64,000 bases of DNA. Source: Marinilabiliaceae bacterium JC017 (GTDB lineage: Bacteria; Bacteroidota; Bacteroidia; Bacteroidales; Marinilabiliaceae). Below are positions 22,217 through 31,757 of the stretch, in pieces. The position numbers and the translations under genes were made by a program. Position 1 is the stretch's first letter. Each line of letters starts with the position of its first letter. The notes below the pieces were generated by a model. That model made no database searches, was not told where the DNA came from, and saw only the letters and a program-made list of their open reading frames with translations. The DNA lies in the NCBI GenBank assembly GCA_004296775.1, contig RHGE01000013.1:173-64172 (forward strand), given 5' to 3'.

Positions 22217-22468
22217 GCTCCGCGAACCCGCGAAATCTTCTCGCAAGGTCGTTTGGCGTTTCCGCGCGTCCGCGAATCCTTCTCGCAAGGTCGTTTGGTG
22301 TTTCCGTGAACCCGCGAATCCTTCTCGCGAGGTCGTTTGGTGTCTCCGCGAACCCGCGAATCCTTCTCGCAAGGTCGTTTGGTGTATTCTGAGCTTCAGA
22401 AACCTTCTCGCAAGGTCGTTTGGTGTATTCTGAGCTTCAGAAATCTTCTCGTAAGGTCGTTTGGTGTT
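22217..22468. repeat. Six-unit 41/42-bp interspersed tandem array (module C)
   Basis: A 23-bp core, CTTCTCGCAAGGTCGTTTGG plus YGT, occurs at 22237, 22279, 22321, 22363, 22404 and 22445 (spacing 42, 42, 42, 41, 41). The intervening 18-19 bp are of two types: a CCGCGAACCCGCGA type between cores 1-4 and the palindrome TTCTGAGCTTCAGAA after cores 4 and 5. Open frames across it (14-residue periodic peptides) come from the period being a multiple of three. Spacers are repeated, not unique, and no cas genes exist, so it is not CRISPR. Confidence 0.9.
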
Positions 22469-22503
22469 TGAACTTCAATAAGAGACTTTGTTTTTTCAGA
22501 AGT

Positions 22504-22617
22504 GACCTGAAAAAAAAGCCTTTTCGAGGGGTGTTGCCTTTAGTTTGTTGTTTTAACAAGATTCATTATATACCGCGGAGGTGCTGAGACGAAATTTTTA
22601 TTTGGAAAGTACAGGTT
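22504..22617 (+). repeat. Dispersed repeat D, copy 1
   Basis: Shares long words (GGTGTTGCCTTTAGTTTGTT, GGAAAGTACAGGTTGTTTC, and a CGGAGG-GCTGAGAC stretch) with 25085-25137 and, inverted, with 41967-42005 and 46293-46360. It directly abuts array B here and at 25 kb. Confidence 0.8.
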
Positions 22618-23003
22618 GTTTCAAAATATTTCTATCTGTTTCAAAGTATCTCCATTTATCTCTAAGTGTTTCCATCTGTTTCAAGATATCTCCATTTATC
22701 TCTAAGTGTTTCCATTTGTTTCGATGTATCTCCATTTATCTCTAAGTGTTTCCATTTGTTTCGATGTATCTCCATTTATCTCTAAGTGTTTCCATTTGTT
22801 TCGATGTATCTCCATTTATCTCTAAGTGTTTCTGTTTGTTTCAAAGTATCTCCATTTATCTCTAAGTGTTTCTGTTTGTTTCAATGTATCTCCATTTATC
22901 TCTAAGCGTTTCTGTTTGTTTCGATGTATCTCCATTTATCTCTAAGTGTTTCTATCTGTTTCAATGTATTTCCATTTATCTCTAAGTATTTCCATCTATT
23001 TCT
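22618..23003. repeat. 40-bp tandem array built of four degenerate 10-bp units (module B)
   Basis: Roughly nine to ten copies of a 40-bp period, itself made of four 10-mers: TGTTTCCATT, TGTTTCGATG, TATCTCCATT, TATCTCTAAG. Every 10-mer shares T-R-T-Y-T-C, so the array has one motif per helical turn. Single or partial units recur at 25128-25200, and inverted at 46084-46142 and, degenerate, at 27690-27765. No coding frame. Confidence 0.92.
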
Positions 23004-23050
23004 TCCTCCAATTGTGAATAATATGTTGGTAAAAGTTGCTCGCTAAGCGA

Positions 23051-24928
23051 CTAAAACTCACCCTGCTTAAACTCCAGAATCAGCGCTGTTTTTGGAAAGA
23101 TAACGATGCCACCCATCTCGGTGTAAATCTCCCCTGTGATCACATCCCGTGCAAATCGGTTGTTGCCGATGATCGACGCATAACTGCTAAAGCTGAGGTC
23201 TTTTTTCTCCCTGGGATTATTATTGAAGACGACCATCACCAGTTGTTCTTCCATAATCCTGAAATAGATGTAAACACCATTCTGAGGTGCATAGTGGATC
23301 AGTTGGCCCTGGTGGATGGCCTGACTGGTACGTCGCCAGGTAAGGAGTTTTTTCATGAAATGGTAAAATTCACGCTGTTGGGCCGACAGCCCTTTCTGAG
23401 AAAACGCATTTTGAGGATCCGAAGGCCAGCCGCCCGGAAAATCTTTACGCACAAAACCTTCGCCTTTGTTGATGTGGCCATCCAGTAGTACCTCTGTACC
23501 ATAGGTGATGGAAGGGATGCCACGGGTGGTAAGCACATATGTCAGCATCAGCTTTAGTTGTGCCAGTTCCTTGTCGGCATTGGTGTAGGCACGTGTCAGC
23601 TTGTGGTTATCGGCAAAAACAATGTTGTTAGCCGGGTGTTTATACACGAAATCCTGTGTTAAAATCTGGTAGAGGTCCCTTAAGCCGTCGGTTGATGAGG
23701 TGTAGGGTGAAAAGGTCGTTTTTAGGGGTTCCGACAGGGGATAGTCCGACGGATGGTTGATTTGCAGGTAACCATCTTCCAGCGCCGGCGAATGTTTGGT
23801 GTGGTAGGCTGCCAGAGCGGGTGCCGAGACATTAACATCGGCAATGATGGCTAACCGGGGGAATACCTGGGTCAGTTTATTGGTTAGTTCACTTAAAAAC
23901 GGCAAATCGTTACTGGCCGTGTTTTCTATTTTGATGCCGTCAATACCTGTTTTAGCCACCCACCACAAACAGTTTTGAATAAGGAATTGGCGCAGCAGCG
24001 GGTCTTGTTGGTTGAGGCGTGGCACGTCCATGGTTTTCCAGGAGAGGGCATGGATGGCTTTATCTTCATTGCTGGCATAGGGATCACTCATCACTGCCGG
24101 ATCGGTCTGTCGCATGTAAGTACCAGCATCGGGAATAAACCAGTTATCCAATGGCGGCTGGGTTACCCACGGATGGCGTTTCCCTACTTGGTGAAACACA
24201 AAGGAGTTAATCACTTTAATGCCCTGGCGCTGGCATTGGGCTACCAGGTTGGTGTATTCATTAATGGTGCCCAGTCGGGCATCGGGCCGGTAATGATTCG
24301 TTGGAGCTGAGCGATCATATGACAAAATGAATTGGTTGCTTTCAGTGACCGGGGTGAGCTCAAGGCATGAAATACCCAGCTGGCGAAAGTAAGGAAGGTG
24401 GTTGAGGATTCCTTTGAAATCACCACCGTGTACCCCGGCAGGGTTGAGGCGGTCGGTACGTTCCATGTAATTACGGGGATTGTCATTGCTCGCATTACCG
24501 TTGCTGAAACGGTCGGGTACAATCTGGTAGATTACGTCTGAAGCCGCAATGCCCTTGTGCTGTTGAGAAGACTTGGGTGCCGGGTAAAGGTAAAAACTGT
24601 AGGAGTCAACCACCCGGGCGCCCGCTCTGAAGGTCAGCACCACGTTGCCCGGTTGCGTTTTTTTGCTGATGGAGAGATTAAGCAAGAGGAAATTGCGGTT
24701 TTGTGAATAGTCGGCTTTTTTAATGGATATACCGGTGTAATTAGTCGAAACGGTGGTGTTGGCGATATTTTCTCCCTTCACCACCACCAACACATCCGCG
24801 TAAGGCATGCCTACCCACCAGTTGGGAGGGTAAACCGATTGTACCGAAGTTCTCCCCTGAATAGGGCCAGTGATAATAAAAAGGGCAGCAATAAAGAGCA
24901 GTGGCCATTTACATGCGTTGTTTCCCAT
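23051..24928 (-). CDS. Secreted GH13-family protein with degenerate catalytic site (probable pseudoenzyme)
   Basis: 625 aa with a signal peptide (1-25), an N-terminal beta domain as in neopullulanase/cyclomaltodextrinase, a (beta/alpha)8 barrel and a C-terminal beta domain. The ATG at 24926-24928 has the Shine-Dalgarno-like AGGAGA upstream and gives a clean signal peptide. Fold blocks are clear (DVIYQIVPDRFSNG, GTEVLLDG, RKDFPGGWPSDP), but all three catalytic carboxylates of GH13 are changed. The nucleophile Asp is E335 (GIKIENTASND) and the usual Arg two before it is K333. The acid/base Glu is D364 (IIADVNVS), and the transition-state Asp is K443 (FADNHKLTR). Region I D-x-x-x-N-H reads S242-F-V-F-H246-Q247. 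Probably binds but does not hydrolyse alpha-glucans. No susC/susD neighbours; repeats on both sides. Confidence 0.85.
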   Translation of the reverse strand: MGNNACKWPLLFIAALFIITGPIQGRTSVQSVYPPNWWVGMPYADVLVVVKGENIANTTVSTNYTGISIKKADYSQNRNFLLLNLSISKKTQPGNVVLTFRAGARVVDSYSFYLYPAPKSSQQHKGIAASDVIYQIVPDRFSNGNASNDNPRNYMERTDRLNPAGVHGGDFKGILNHLPYFRQLGISCLELTPVTESNQFILSYDRSAPTNHYRPDARLGTINEYTNLVAQCQRQGIKVINSFVFHQVGKRHPWVTQPPLDNWFIPDAGTYMRQTDPAVMSDPYASNEDKAIHALSWKTMDVPRLNQQDPLLRQFLIQNCLWWVAKTGIDGIKIENTASNDLPFLSELTNKLTQVFPRLAIIADVNVSAPALAAYHTKHSPALEDGYLQINHPSDYPLSEPLKTTFSPYTSSTDGLRDLYQILTQDFVYKHPANNIVFADNHKLTRAYTNADKELAQLKLMLTYVLTTRGIPSITYGTEVLLDGHINKGEGFVRKDFPGGWPSDPQNAFSQKGLSAQQREFYHFMKKLLTWRRTSQAIHQGQLIHYAPQNGVYIYFRIMEEQLVMVVFNNNPREKKDLSFSSYASIIGNNRFARDVITGEIYTEMGGIVIFPKTALILEFKQGEF

Positions 24929-25019
24929 AATTCTCTCCTTTAGGTAGTGGTTGTTGTGATAAAGTATCCCTAAAGGTATAAATATTAATAAAAAAGGATT
25001 GTTCACTAACGTATTAGAA

Positions 25020-25390
25020 TAGCCTAAAATTTTAAATATGCAGACAGGTTAAGGATTGGAAAGAGGGATGATGTAATAATTTAAACCCGGAGGCACTGAG
25101 ACGCAGAGATTTTTCTTTGGAAAGTACAGGTTGTTTCAAAATATTTCTATCTGTTTCAATGTATCTCCATTTATCTCTAAGTGTTTCCATCTATTTCCCC
25201 CCTCTAACTTCTGACCTCTATCTTCTCTATATTTCCATCCAATTTAGACAACATGTTGGTAAAAGTAGCATCCTAAGCACCTAAGAACATTTTCACATCG
25301 AACATTCCCCGGTTGAGCTAAATCCCACGGGCATACACCCCTCTATGGTTTTTGTAAGAAGCCCGGAATTCCGGACTTCTCACAACTCTT
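25020..25390. repeat. Repeat island between the GH13 and phosphoesterase genes
   Basis: Contains a partial module D (25085-25137), module B units (25128-25200) and the module G word ACATGTTGGTAAAAGTAGC near 25251 (also near 23021 and, inverted, near 41312). A 23-bp near-palindrome around CCCGGAATTCCGG (25358-25380) lies just past the end of the phosphoesterase gene and may help end its transcript, although no T-run follows. No gene. Confidence 0.7.
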
Positions 25391-26896: not shown

Positions 26897-27550
26897 TCAC
26901 ATCCGCACATTCAGGTTCCGCAATGGGTCTTTCCGGTCAAAGATAACAATGCCATATACCGGTACCCCGCTTTTCAGTGTCTTGTAGGTAAAATCATAGG
27001 CGGTCAGGTCTTTGGTCAGATCGGCATTGGCCTGTTTGCGCCTTTTGTTGTCCTGAGCAGCCAATTCTTCCGCAAGGGTAGGGTCGCGTGGTTCTTCAAA
27101 ACCATTGGCATCTCTCGGAGGCTCATAGTCTTCATCTAACTGACCTTTTAACGCCCATTCAATAAGTATGAAAGGAAAAGCAATGAAGGAAGCACCGGAC
27201 GAGCGTTGTCGTGCTTTTTTGGCAAACCAGGCGATGCGCACCGGTGATAAACGTTCGTCACCTTCATAAAACTGTAATTGGTAGCCCTTGCGAAATTGAC
27301 CGGAGGTGTTGATAACTTCCATGCCTATCACCTGGTAGTGGTGATGGTGTGCCCATCGGTTGACATGTTTATTGCCCGATAGCTTCAATACATCCCTGAA
27401 GAAACCATACTGCAGGCTGTCTTGTGTATTAGTGATAAATTTATCGGTAGGGGCACATGTGATTGGTGGCAGTGTTTTGTGACTTACCGCGCATGATGAA
27501 ATAGTGAAGAGTAATATAGTAATCGTAAATGTGTGGAAAATAAATTTCAT
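26897..27550 (-). CDS. Uncharacterised lipoprotein
   Basis: 217 aa with a lipoprotein signal (hydrophobic 3-17, lipobox ISSC, Cys20). The mature part is polar with one mildly hydrophobic stretch (SGASFIAFPFILIEWAL, about 117-133). A charged acidic/basic region (DEDYEPPRDANGFEEPRDP) and a C-terminal strand-rich end (VPVYGIVIFDRKDPLRNLNV) follow. I recognise no family. The start fits the signal peptide. Probably outer-membrane anchored; role unknown. Confidence 0.7.
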   Translation of the reverse strand: MKFIFHTFTITILLFTISSCAVSHKTLPPITCAPTDKFITNTQDSLQYGFFRDVLKLSGNKHVNRWAHHHHYQVIGMEVINTSGQFRKGYQLQFYEGDERLSPVRIAWFAKKARQRSSGASFIAFPFILIEWALKGQLDEDYEPPRDANGFEEPRDPTLAEELAAQDNKRRKQANADLTKDLTAYDFTYKTLKSGVPVYGIVIFDRKDPLRNLNVRM

Positions 27551-28157
27551 AATTGATTGGGTGTATCACCTAAAGGAGACAATTAAGTGTTCGCCTACAC
27601 GTATCGGGTTAGGGGGTGTAAGGAAGAGTGGCATATTTATTACAATTAGAGATATTGGTTATGATTCATTGAGGTTAGGATGGAAAAAGATTGAAACAGG
27701 TGGAAATACTATTGAAATAAATTGAGGTAGATAGAAATAGCTGGAAGAATTTTGAGTCAGGTTGAAAAGGAACAGATCGGTAGTTTTATCCCATTATCCC
27801 GGCAAACTTTAGTAATCACTTAAAAACATCTTACCGATTTTGTCTTTCCAGTCAATCAAAGAGCGTAGGTGATACCGTCTTTACAATGGGCGTGTCAGCC
27901 CGCTTGTGGGTTGGGAAAGGGTGATTTTAGCCTTTCCGTCTTTGATCGCAACACGATTATATAAACGCATACATCTGTTGTCTATTGTGTCGGCTATTGA
28001 AAAATTATTAAATAATAGTAATGAAAGATGTTAAATATGTTGAAAGGCTTGACAGTGCAGGGAAACAGGAGGTAAAGGGGTGTTGAAGGTGAGGCTGTGA
28101 TATTATGAAGATTTACAGAATCAACAATAGGTGTAAAAAAAAGACTCTTTTTTTGTA
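27551..28157. other. Intergenic region; possible decayed coding remnant on the minus strand
   Basis: Bases 27690-27765 carry degenerate, inverted 10-bp module B units. Between about 27820 and 28005 the minus strand reads as protein-like segments split by a stop (ending KITLSQPTSGLTRPL, then RSLIDWKDKIGKMFLSDY). This could be a degraded gene or another repeat; I cannot name it. Confidence 0.3.
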
Positions 28158-28186
28158 TTGATTGATGGCTTGTTTTGTTACTTTTG
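28158..28186 (+). promoter_or_regulatory. Promoter of the unknown two-gene operon
   Basis: TTG (28158-28160), 18 nt, TACTTTTG (28179-28186), matching the Bacteroidota consensus with the same spacing as the arsR and rpmH promoters. It lies about 155 bp before the first start codon. Confidence 0.7.
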
Positions 28187-28240
28187 ATAGGTGTGTGGGA
28201 TCGGTTATAGTAACATTTTTAAGACGGATTAATTCAAAAT

Positions 28241-28277
28241 GGGATCTCCAAAGCATAATGAGCTATCCCTTTTTTTT
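28241..28277 (+). terminator. Leader terminator/attenuator (or small-RNA terminator)
   Basis: GGGATCTC pairs with GAG-CT-ATCCC (stem 28241-28269, with a CT bulge), followed by eight T (28270-28277). It lies between a good promoter and the first gene, with no upstream rightward gene to terminate. It therefore either attenuates the operon or ends a small RNA of about 85 nt starting near 28192. Confidence 0.65.
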
Positions 28278-28340
28278 ATGTGACTATTCTGCTGGTGGAT
28301 ATAGCCAATCAGTTAATAAATATCAATAAACCCAATAAAG

Positions 28341-28790
28341 ATGAAAGAGCTAAATCTGGAAAAACTACAAGATAACATAGAGGAGGTATTAAGTTCTAAT
28401 ATATCCTTTTATAGGAATTCCCCTGACGATGAATCTTTGTATTGTATGCCACCTGAGATTATTACCTGTTTGGGAGTCGAGATTTTTCAATATGCGGCTA
28501 CTTTTTTTGGAGCATTACCAGGAGCTATTGCGGCAGGTCGATGGATTACTGCCAAAATGAAAAAAAAACCTACCGCTTTAAGCCATGAGAAACAAGCAGG
28601 AAGGAAGGATAAAGAATCACTGCGTTCACGATTAGCTGTTGTTCGGTTGAATTTGGAGGATGATAAACTGAAAACTGAATTTAAAAAAGATATCGGGGTG
28701 TTATTAGCTTACCATGGCTGGCCGGCAGATGAAGCCAATGATGATGCAGAAAAATTACTTAAAATATTCATCGATGAACGTGTTAACTAA
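28341..28790 (+). CDS. Unknown protein with one membrane-like segment (operon gene 1)
   Basis: 149 aa, no family recognised. A charged N-terminal third contains C35 and C43. A hydrophobic segment at about 46-70 (VEIFQYAATFFGALPGAIAAG) is long enough to insert in or associate with a membrane. A basic linker (about 74-95) and an acidic helical C-terminus (KDIGVLLAYHGWPADEANDD) follow. The gene overlaps the next one by 17 bp in another frame, so the two are likely co-translated. Transcription probably starts near 28192 through the attenuator-like hairpin. Confidence 0.65.
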   Translation: MKELNLEKLQDNIEEVLSSNISFYRNSPDDESLYCMPPEIITCLGVEIFQYAATFFGALPGAIAAGRWITAKMKKKPTALSHEKQAGRKDKESLRSRLAVVRLNLEDDKLKTEFKKDIGVLLAYHGWPADEANDDAEKLLKIFIDERVN

Positions 28791-29808
28791 ATTAGATTGT
28801 CAAAAAAGAGATGCTGCAATAATTAATATGCAGGTGCAGGAATCAATTAGAACAGGTGAATCAATTTCTGATATTTTGCGTTATATGGCGTCGGAAAAGA
28901 TAGACGGTAACCAGGAAACTAAATCCTATGAAGTTGATGCACCTCTGGTTTTGATGGAAGGGGAACGAATTGATCATTCCATTAGTGAATATTTTTTTGA
29001 TCCTTCCCTTAATTCCAAGTTGATACCGAGTGAAGTTTATTTTCATAAGTGGATGGTCTTTATAAGCATGTTGTCTTCCCGTAAATCGCAAGCAGGCCAA
29101 ACTTCTCAGGGATATGCTTTTTCTTTGTTGCAACGGGCGGTGCATCAGTGTGAAAGAAAATATGGGACATCTGAAGCCAAAGCTTTTGCTCAACGGTTAC
29201 ACGATAATCGGTGGAGTACAGGATCGGAAATGACAGCTAGTCTATTTATCACTGCGTTGACAGGGAACCAGGAGAGTGAATTTAAACAGTTGGCTAACGA
29301 CCGGGCTTTTGTAAATGAATATGTGCTGCAGGTTCGGCGTGATTTGAAGCGGATTAAAGAAGATTCGAAAGATTTGACGGAATGGAATGAAGCTATTTAT
29401 TCCATTAATCCAGATGTGAGTGCGTTAATGAAATTTTTGCGGGTTTCAGATTTAGATGAGGCAGAGAAATGGTATCGTTTTTTTGCCGAAGTGGATGCTG
29501 ATATTACGCCTTCTGTCATGCGTTCAACTTTTACAGTAATTGAAGAAATGAAGGACGAGAAATTGGCAGGATGGCGAACTATGTTTCATTCTGAGAAAGA
29601 AGCTTCTGATTCATTAACTGAATTTAAAAAACGGTTACAGTATCTTTTTAATGGACGGACAACTATCCCTAAATTTTGGATGGAATTAGCCTTGATCCAT
29701 TATGAAACGTCAGATGAAGCTCTTCCCCCTGCTTTATATCAAGTTGATCCCTGGAATGCTGTTAGTATTGATGTGCTATCTGCATGGGGCATGAAATGGC
29801 AAAGCTGA
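28774..29808 (+). CDS. Unknown alpha-helical protein (operon gene 2)
   Basis: About 344 aa from the ATG at 28774, inside the last codons of gene 1; a longer in-frame start at 28714 lies deep inside gene 1 and is less likely. Almost wholly helical by composition, soluble, no signal peptide, no motif I can name. Conserved-looking aromatic patches are SEVYFHKWMVFISMLSSRK and PKFWMELALIHYETSDEALP. The pair could be a membrane protein and its soluble partner. Function unknown; neither protein resembles a known toxin, transposase or phage protein to my eye. Confidence 0.65.
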   Translation: MNVLTKLDCQKRDAAIINMQVQESIRTGESISDILRYMASEKIDGNQETKSYEVDAPLVLMEGERIDHSISEYFFDPSLNSKLIPSEVYFHKWMVFISMLSSRKSQAGQTSQGYAFSLLQRAVHQCERKYGTSEAKAFAQRLHDNRWSTGSEMTASLFITALTGNQESEFKQLANDRAFVNEYVLQVRRDLKRIKEDSKDLTEWNEAIYSINPDVSALMKFLRVSDLDEAEKWYRFFAEVDADITPSVMRSTFTVIEEMKDEKLAGWRTMFHSEKEASDSLTEFKKRLQYLFNGRTTIPKFWMELALIHYETSDEALPPALYQVDPWNAVSIDVLSAWGMKWQS

Positions 29809-30492: not shown

Positions 30493-30526
30493 GAGTGGAA
30501 AGGTACCTTTGCCTTTTCACTCTTTT
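30493..30526 (+). terminator. Partial terminator between the GG peptide and the protease
   Basis: GAGTGGAAAGG (30493-30503) pairs with CCTTTTCACTC (30512-30522) with one G-U pair, 8-nt loop, then only four T. A weak terminator here would favour peptide mRNA over protease mRNA. Confidence 0.6.
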
Positions 30527-30545
30527 ACTTTCAAAGAATAAGTTT

Positions 30546-31757
30546 ATGAGATTTGCCTTCCTTGTTTTTATTGCCCTGTGTTTTTTTGATAGTCCCTCTG
30601 CTTGTTACGGACAATCAGCCCCTAAAGCCTATGCCTCTGCCAAGCTCGTTTCTAAAAACTTTGGAACGAACCTCTCCGTGGAGTACTCCCGTGGCGTCAT
30701 TGTTTTAACGAATGTTCGAATTTCAGGATCAGATAAAGCGTATCGATTTATTCTCGATAGTGGTTCTGACTATTCCCTTATCTCCGAACATCTGGCAGAT
30801 GCTATTGGGTTTAAACCATCTTTTTCGGAAGAGATAACAGATGGGTATGAAAAACAGAAGGTAGAACTGGGATTTGTGGATATTCAACTCGATGCTATCT
30901 GCTTTAAAGAGGTAGGAGTTGGGGTAATTTATAACGCACAGTCGGAAAAAGTCTGCGACATCGATGGGTATATTGGGTATAATTTGATGAAAAGTTGCAT
31001 CTGGCAACTGAGTAAAGATCAACTTGTAGTCACTGACAAAATCAAGAACGTAAAAAAACTGGAGGCCTATTCCAAACAAAAACTATTTAACGGACCTGTC
31101 GTTGAGGCAGGTTTTGTAGATGGATTTAATTCCACCATGTTGTTTGATTTAGGGGACAATGGGACCGTCGAAATACAGGAATCAAGGATCGATTGGATTA
31201 GAAACAAACAAATTATTACTGGCACCGGCAGGTTATACACAACAGGCCTGGGTGAGGGTGCTAAAAAGGACGAGTCCATTCATAAACTATTGCAAGTTTC
31301 AGGGTTTAAATTCGGGGGTGAAGTTGTTAATGACATGGTGGTCTATACCGACGATGCACCACATTTTCCTATTGATGTGATTGGTGCGGGCATTCTTAAA
31401 TATTACAATATTATTTTAGACTTTCCGGGTAAACGATTGTATTCCCAAAATATCTGTAATACCTATATCAATGACGGTTATAAGACTTGTGGCTTCAAAT
31501 ACGATATTGTAGGAAATGAAGTGGTTATTAAATTCATATGGAACCATTCTGCCGCCCGGGAAGCAGGTCTGAAAATTGGTCAGAAGATTGAATCAATCAA
31601 CGATACAGATGTTCATGATTTGAGAAATCAGGAAGCTTGTGAAGCTTATAATAGAGTGGATGCATTGCTGGAACAGGAGGTAGTATCTCTTAAAATCCAG
31701 GGCGTAGATGATAGAATTACTTTGACAAGATCACCGCTTTTTAAAAGCAAAGAGTAG
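30546..31757 (+). CDS. Secreted retropepsin-like aspartic protease with C-terminal PDZ domain
   Basis: 403 aa from the ATG at 30546, which gives a signal peptide (1-22). Two pepsin-like half-domains are visible: the first with FILDSGSDYSLIS (D71-S-G), the second with MLFDLGDNGTVEI (D201-L-G) and the strand IGAGILKYYNIILDF. A PDZ domain follows (about 320-395) with the carboxylate-binding-type stretch AREAGLKIGQKIESIND. This is the Bacteroidota 'aspartyl protease family' layout. Position directly after a GG-leader peptide suggests that it processes or senses that peptide outside the cytoplasm; this is inference. Confidence 0.82.
   Translation: MRFAFLVFIALCFFDSPSACYGQSAPKAYASAKLVSKNFGTNLSVEYSRGVIVLTNVRISGSDKAYRFILDSGSDYSLISEHLADAIGFKPSFSEEITDGYEKQKVELGFVDIQLDAICFKEVGVGVIYNAQSEKVCDIDGYIGYNLMKSCIWQLSKDQLVVTDKIKNVKKLEAYSKQKLFNGPVVEAGFVDGFNSTMLFDLGDNGTVEIQESRIDWIRNKQIITGTGRLYTTGLGEGAKKDESIHKLLQVSGFKFGGEVVNDMVVYTDDAPHFPIDVIGAGILKYYNIILDFPGKRLYSQNICNTYINDGYKTCGFKYDIVGNEVVIKFIWNHSAAREAGLKIGQKIESINDTDVHDLRNQEACEAYNRVDALLEQEVVSLKIQGVDDRITLTRSPLFKSKE

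Follow-up and report, generated by a model that had tools for sequence, protein, structure and literature searches.

The gene at 23051-24928 on the minus strand of the window (the whole stretch of 64,000 nucleotides that was analysed) raises the question of why a bacterium should keep an amylase-like protein whose catalytic residues have been replaced. The reading that we prefer, and consider likely, is that the gene encodes an exported, non-catalytic paralogue of SusA and other GH13_46 enzymes, an old copy in which the mouth of the barrel has been rebuilt.

Fold and catalytic positions

Translation of 23051-24928 yielded a protein of 625 aa with no internal stops. The start is an ATG at 24928 with AGGAGAG just 5' of it, and the open frame extends further to a GTG at 25006. 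The N-terminus is hydrophobic, and a probable signal peptide was recognized by eye at about residues 1-26 (24851-24928, minus strand, as for all features of the gene given below); the N-termini of 28 relatives, also judged by eye, are likewise hydrophobic. The protein is probably exported and periplasmic. Pfam matches covered an N-terminal domain at about residues 31-118 (24575-24838; Cyc-maltodext_N, PF09087, 1.4e-20, matching residues 32-114, with strands at 28-115 in the AlphaFold model), a barrel with its inserted domain B at residues 135-489 (23462-24526; Alpha-amylase, PF00128, 2.5e-29) and a C-terminal domain at residues 543-619 (23072-23302; Cyc-maltodext_C, PF10438, 1.1e-18), so that barrel, domain B and C domain of the GH13 fold are all accounted for. 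The N-terminal module aligns to 1h3g and 9fyz along its length. Among the 25 NCBIfam matches listed, none reached the cut-off. The nearest solved relatives by sequence were the Flavobacterium cyclomaltodextrinase 1h3g (E 7.4e-112) and its mutants, followed by SusA 9fyz (2.6e-108) and 9dcq (9.4e-102).

We generated an AlphaFold2 model from a 42-row alignment (mean pLDDT 90.6, pTM 0.90) and aligned 1000 Foldseek candidates to it with VIA-align 2. The best match was SusA 9fyz (Z 55.1, rmsd 1.8 A, 582 residues aligned), followed by the GH13_46 enzyme BcGH13A 9dcq (Z 53.3) and 1h3g (Z 47.0); the 50 matches listed, with Z from 39.5 to 55.1, are described as amylases, CGTases and their relatives. The GH13 fold of the window protein is therefore predicted to be intact, in agreement with an earlier sequence-only reading, which had proposed an intact fold and signal peptide and had suggested an overlay on a GH13 neopullulanase; the predicted match to SusA extends over the whole length.

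The catalytic triad of GH13 enzymes consists of an Asp on strand beta4, a Glu on beta5 and an Asp on beta7; the window protein has Glu335, Asp364 and Lys443 instead. In the alignment with 1h3g, the invariant Arg and the nucleophile Asp are replaced within Lys333-Ile334-Glu335 (23924-23932), the acid/base Glu by Asp364 (23837-23839) and the third Asp by Lys443 (23600-23602), and region I, DVVLSH in 1h3g, reads SFVFHQ (residues 242-247, 24188-24205) in place of D-x-x-x-N-H. The multiple alignment with 90 intact relatives gave the same register, and each of the substitutions listed in the sequence-only reading proved to be real. We also sought an alternative alignment that would restore the triad and found none, the HMMER pairwise, multiple and whole-length structure alignments being in agreement.

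We use "pseudo clade" for the window protein and the homologues without the catalytic set, and "intact" for homologues that keep the carboxylates. The aligned set comprised 120 proteins, namely the matches in 71 genomes of the same family and the best matches of a sample of the order. With a partial neighbour (L024b) left out of trees and counts, 119 homologues remained: 29 without the catalytic set and 90 keeping the carboxylates, one of the latter (L141, genome G032, an otherwise intact GH13_46 copy on a long branch) with Gln instead of His in region I. Residue counts compare 28 full-length pseudo-clade rows with the 90 intact rows, of which 62 came from the window's own genome or the search of the family and 28 from that of the order. 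The intact rows were picked for their likeness to the window protein and so do not sample GH13_46 at random; L157, the first piece of a split copy in genome G022, was left out of the 28-row counts and of alignments A1 and A2.

Asp242, Asn246, Arg333, Asp335, Glu364, His442 and Asp443 are found in 90/90 intact rows, and His247 in 89/90. In the pseudo clade, Asp242, Glu364 and His247 occur in 0/28 members, Asp443 in 4/28, Arg333 in 7/28 and Asp335 in 10/28, so that the acid/base Glu is gone from all 28 and the third Asp from 24. Position 335 is otherwise Glu (16/28), Tyr (1/28) or Cys (1/28), which leaves an acid there in 26/28, and position 364 is Asp in 22/28 and Ala, Ser or Thr in 6/28. All three triad positions differ from D/E/D in 14/28 members, the window protein among them. 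Further residues were lost as well, namely His205 (1/28 vs 90/90 intact), Tyr207 (2/28 vs 90/90), Trp366 (0/28 vs 89/90), Met302 (5/28 vs 90/90) and Asp304 (0/28 vs 90/90). Judged from these columns, the -1 sugar subsite is lost in the pseudo clade.

The window protein also departs from the published description of GH13_46 (PMC9781549). An intact triad was a selection criterion in that work, so proteins like those of the pseudo clade lie outside its set by design, and the window protein lacks the intact catalytic machinery by which its members were chosen. The MPDLN motif, described there as nearly invariant in CSR-V, reads VPRLN in the window protein, and the aromatic end of CSR-II, with two conserved Tyr, has Ser339 (Tyr339 in 3/28 pseudo-clade vs 88/90 intact rows). 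The WW pair is kept as Trp322 and Trp323 in 28/28 members. The window protein therefore resembles SusA and GH13_46 (9fyz, 9dcq, 1h3g) in its N, A/B and C domains, export signal, WW pair and whole-length fold, and differs from them in the replacement of the catalytic and most -1 subsite residues, in VPRLN for MPDLN and in residues specific to its own clade.

Replacement of triad residues need not abolish activity. BmaN1, a GH13 protein with an aberrant triad that keeps the acid/base Glu but has its two Asp replaced by Lys and His, is reported to be active on starch (PMC5347038, which also mentions seven sequences substituted at all three triad positions), and for this reason we infer the loss of hydrolysis in the window protein rather than consider it proven. 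If the window protein worked like BmaN1, it would still hydrolyse or transglycosylate alpha-glucans, Glu335 or a neighbouring residue acting as the nucleophile and Asp364 as a shortened acid/base, and the frequent acids at 335 and 364 agree with such a scheme, as does the likeness to the BmaN1 group (GH13_45) as bacterial GH13 proteins with replaced triad residues. However, BmaN1 belongs to another subfamily with other substitutions and combines its activity with a retained acid/base Glu, which every pseudo-clade member has lost. Most members also lack the -1 subsite residues His205, Tyr207, His247, Arg333 and Asp443, and the acid is not strict at either position, making continued catalysis of this kind quite improbable. 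Pseudoenzymes are defined as lacking conserved catalytic motifs by sequence (PMC10211241, where the words glycoside hydrolase and amylase are absent). The window protein lacks the catalytic motif, as far as its sequence tells, and is otherwise intact and conserved, so the case for its being a pseudoenzyme is strong.

Distribution, origin and selection

The pseudo gene was found in 29 of the 71 same-family genomes and in 12 of 21 genera, one copy each, 28 of them full-length (the window gene included) and one split. A profile built from the 28 pseudo rows and run against the 71 genomes scored the full-length copies at 721-889 bits and the intact proteins at no more than 628 bits. The 29th copy (L197, genome G022) consists of two overlapping frames, reflecting either recent decay or an assembly error, and matches in G029, G042, G055 and G068, being fragments or split, were left unclassified. 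The orthologues that the sequence-only reading had proposed to search for thus exist, without the catalytic set, in 28 further genomes of the family. Outside the family, no pseudo-clade member was recovered from the 393 sampled genomes of the order, where the best outside match scored 658 bits, or from the 395 sampled genomes of the class, where only two genomes passed E 1e-185 and both belong to the family. All 25 of 25 loci outside the family taken from the order search carry the full catalytic set; these were among the best-scoring order matches, and several were already in the tree. Other losses may exist outside the family, since both searches were samples in which the best three candidates per genome were scored.

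Most pseudo-bearing genomes (25/29) also carry an intact paralogue; none was found in G016 (rated 100% complete), G027, G028 or G031. The window genome (6.65 Mb in 500 contigs) has two other full-length relatives, with 37% and 35% identity to the window protein and the full catalytic set, one of which, on C147, has genes for an MFS-type transporter, a beta-phosphoglucomutase and a GH65 protein in the same run.

The 29 pseudo rows occupy one side of a single branch, with the 90 intact rows on the other (SH-aLRT 100). The clade was recovered with support 100/100 in a careful search without long and near-duplicate rows (22 pseudo and 44 intact; these 66 rows were 65 of the 119 plus one added, with 7 pseudo rows left out), and both trees carried warnings for long branches and odd composition. 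After removal of 26 trait positions the pseudo rows still formed one clade (FastTree support 1.0). We considered a long-branch artefact as the cause of the grouping and rejected it, because the clade survives both the dropping of long rows and the removal of the trait positions. The branch leading to the clade is long and sits with six long-branch intact rows in the SH-aLRT tree; given this branch and the poor placement of the nearest intact group, we claim no sister group. A single origin, in which one old SusA-type copy would have given rise to the whole pseudo clade, is the simplest reading of these trees.

We computed dN/dS for the pseudo genes of ten genome pairs, three of which gave usable values, dS being saturated in the other seven. 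The three pseudo pairs gave 0.063 and 0.100 (dS 0.27 each) and 0.107 (dS 2.3, near saturation), compared to 0.022, 0.053 and 0.057 for the intact copies of the same genome pairs. Values of 0.06-0.11 indicate that the pseudo gene is constrained, and the pseudo clade, although it evolves faster than its intact relatives, shows purifying selection in the pairs that could be measured. We reject decay confined to one genome, given the 28 full-length orthologues together with these ratios, which upholds the earlier view that the gene is not decaying. The faster evolution and the split G022 copy might suggest a gene on its way out across the clade and kept by chance; but with single full-length frames in 28 of 29 genomes, constrained dN/dS and invariant residues peculiar to the clade, we find this hardly credible. 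The loss shared by relatives in the family, together with selection on an intact gene, suggests that the protein probably has a new job other than cutting.

Residues gained, probably at the barrel mouth

The pseudo clade has acquired residues of its own. Gln135 (24524-24526) is present in 28/28 members, where 90/90 intact rows have Leu; position 190, Glu in the window protein (24359-24361), is Glu or Asp in 27/28 and Trp in 90/90 intact rows; position 206, Arg in the window protein (24311-24313), is basic (Arg, His or Lys) in 28/28 and Gly in 90/90; position 242 is Thr or Ser in 26/28 vs 0/90; and position 452, Asp in the window protein (23573-23575), is acidic in 28/28 (21 Asp, 7 Glu) vs 9/90. 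In ordinary GH13 enzymes, D242 and R333 are in contact as an ion pair. The sole member with Asn190 (L024) is also the sole member with Ile333, and this one case in the alignment hints that a 190-333 ion pair may replace the D242-R333 contact. The clade has thus lost the triad, further residues of the -1 subsite and MPDLN, with the predicted fold staying intact. From these columns and the usual geometry of GH13 enzymes, we infer a barrel mouth that would then have been rebuilt around Gln135, Glu/Asp190, basic 206, Thr/Ser242, Lys/Arg333 and acidic 452.

To see where conservation was lost, we compared the mean identity of pseudo and intact copies over eight genome pairs. Pseudo vs intact values were 0.52 vs 0.77 for domain N, 0.70 vs 0.86 for residues 129-250, 0.52 vs 0.89 for domain B, 0.62 vs 0.88 for residues 301-535 and 0.55 vs 0.71 for domain C. 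The largest drop falls on domain B and the smallest on residues 129-250, home of four of the five new positions. We also counted, over residues 126-625, the positions at which no fewer than 85 of the 90 intact rows have an aromatic residue or His. The pseudo clade keeps 15 of these; at 16 others, residues of the -1 subsite among them, no more than 14 of the 28 pseudo rows have such a residue.

These patterns bear on what the protein might bind. If the mouth were rebuilt as a new sensing or active site, its ligand would be something other than an alpha-1,4-glucan, and at the extreme the barrel would carry out new chemistry, with Gln135, Glu/Asp190, basic 206, Thr/Ser242 and acidic 452 at its centre. 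Five positions that are near-invariant in the clade and near-absent from intact relatives, most of them in the segment that lost least conservation, would suit such a site, but the new residues may be mere structural repair of the barrel core, and we rate a new site of this kind as rather unlikely. Retention of the ancestral ligand, maltodextrin or starch, in the old cleft would accord with the 15 aromatic or His positions that are kept and with the proximity of a GH65 operon in 12 of 29 genomes. Set against it are the 16 lost positions, including those of the -1 subsite, and the erosion of domain B, the cleft side, which makes glucan binding there doubtful; as an account of the protein's role, old-cleft binding seems to us possible at best. 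Of the proposal in the sequence-only reading that the protein is a glycan-binding pseudoenzyme, the second half therefore stands, relative to SusA, and the first is weakened as far as the ancestral cleft is concerned.

Gene neighbourhood and candidate roles

We compared 29 loci (28 stretches and part of the window); the counts are lower bounds, as some stretches stop at a contig end. In 12 of the 29 (G030 and eleven g7 genomes) the pseudo gene adjoins genes for GH65, a beta-PGM-like protein and an MFS transporter, and 10 of these 12 GH65-operon stretches also hold a LacI-like regulator, recognized by eye. Six genomes (g2, g8 and g16) have a prolyl oligopeptidase and a TPR protein preceding the pseudo gene, and three g18 genomes a TPR protein and a DUF3859 protein upstream of it. 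The pseudo gene lies near gcvP in the window genome, G026-G028 and G031, the neighbours of the window gene being gcvP and a calcineurin-like phosphoesterase rather than a sugar operon. An elbB-type gene is present in at least 15 of the 29 stretches and a DUF4294 gene in at least 17. In G030, GH65 is followed by the intact copy, the pseudo copy and finally elbB; a LigT-like gene is interposed on the opposite strand. Because G030 keeps these genes near each other in that order, the clade may have arisen by tandem duplication, perhaps within the GH65/beta-PGM/MFS operon, with later moves elsewhere; we offer this as the simplest story.

The non-catalytic paralogue that we favour might serve maltodextrin uptake, or a process close to it, by sensing a ligand or partnering another protein and not by hydrolysis, and its working surface would then be the rebuilt barrel mouth, the N domain through which relatives oligomerise, or both. 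We put this role forward tentatively. In a narrower version, the protein would be a non-catalytic subunit of mixed oligomers that tunes the intact SusA-type paralogue, by analogy with plant ISA2 and ISA1. Such a partnership would be in keeping with the co-occurrence of an intact paralogue in most pseudo-bearing genomes, with the two genes lying side by side in G030, and with the known relatives: SusA is periplasmic and dimeric (PMC11633381), and the Flavobacterium enzyme oligomerises in part through its domain N (PMC9781549). Nevertheless, G016, G027, G028 and G031 lack an intact GH13_46 copy, which weakens the idea of an obligate partner, and the clade shows no particular conservation of the N domain, so that we view the tuning subunit with some scepticism, as an improbable though reasonable account.

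Proteins of this general kind have precedents. The plant isoamylase ISA2 (PMC12510319) is similarly a GH13 paralogue of long standing that has had most of its catalytic residues changed and persists alongside an active paralogue; unlike the pseudo clade, it belongs to another GH13 branch and other organisms, and its complex with ISA1 is known, whereas the pseudo clade is linked to its paralogue by co-occurrence, with four of 29 genomes lacking one. The heavy chains 4F2hc and rBAT (PMC8537225) likewise reuse the alpha-amylase fold for a non-hydrolytic job, but they are membrane-anchored subunits of vertebrate transporters (SLC3) and are not close relatives. A non-hydrolytic kind of GH13 protein is thus already known from plants and animals; in open-licence PubMed Central we found no paper on the pseudo clade, nor a bacterial GH13_46 clade of such proteins. 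Here the clade is bacterial, with one apparent origin, 28 full-length members and conserved residues of its own, and the intact paralogues in 25 of 29 genomes serve as matched controls, so that mutation and deletion could be used to test why a dead amylase should be retained. A practical warning follows for annotation, as domain-based methods will name such proteins alpha-amylase, cyclomaltodextrinase or neopullulanase.

Several minor features were observed around the window gene. Copies of a dispersed intergenic repeat lie on both sides of it (22591-23054 and 25085-25290), with a 92-nt core that is 96% identical, and 25085-25290 used as query gave 67 matches in the window genome, some of them short pieces. 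In the copy downstream of the gene, 22629-23002 is a tandem array of 40-bp units with a sub-period of 10 bp. Just past gcvP, a 42-bp tandem repeat in 6 copies (22219-22469) gives rise to a repetitive open frame, which is unlikely to be a gene. Farther along, 26897-29808 contains three ORFs (217, 149 and 364 aa) with no Pfam match, and 30495-31757 encodes an aspartyl-protease-like protein with a weak PDZ match.
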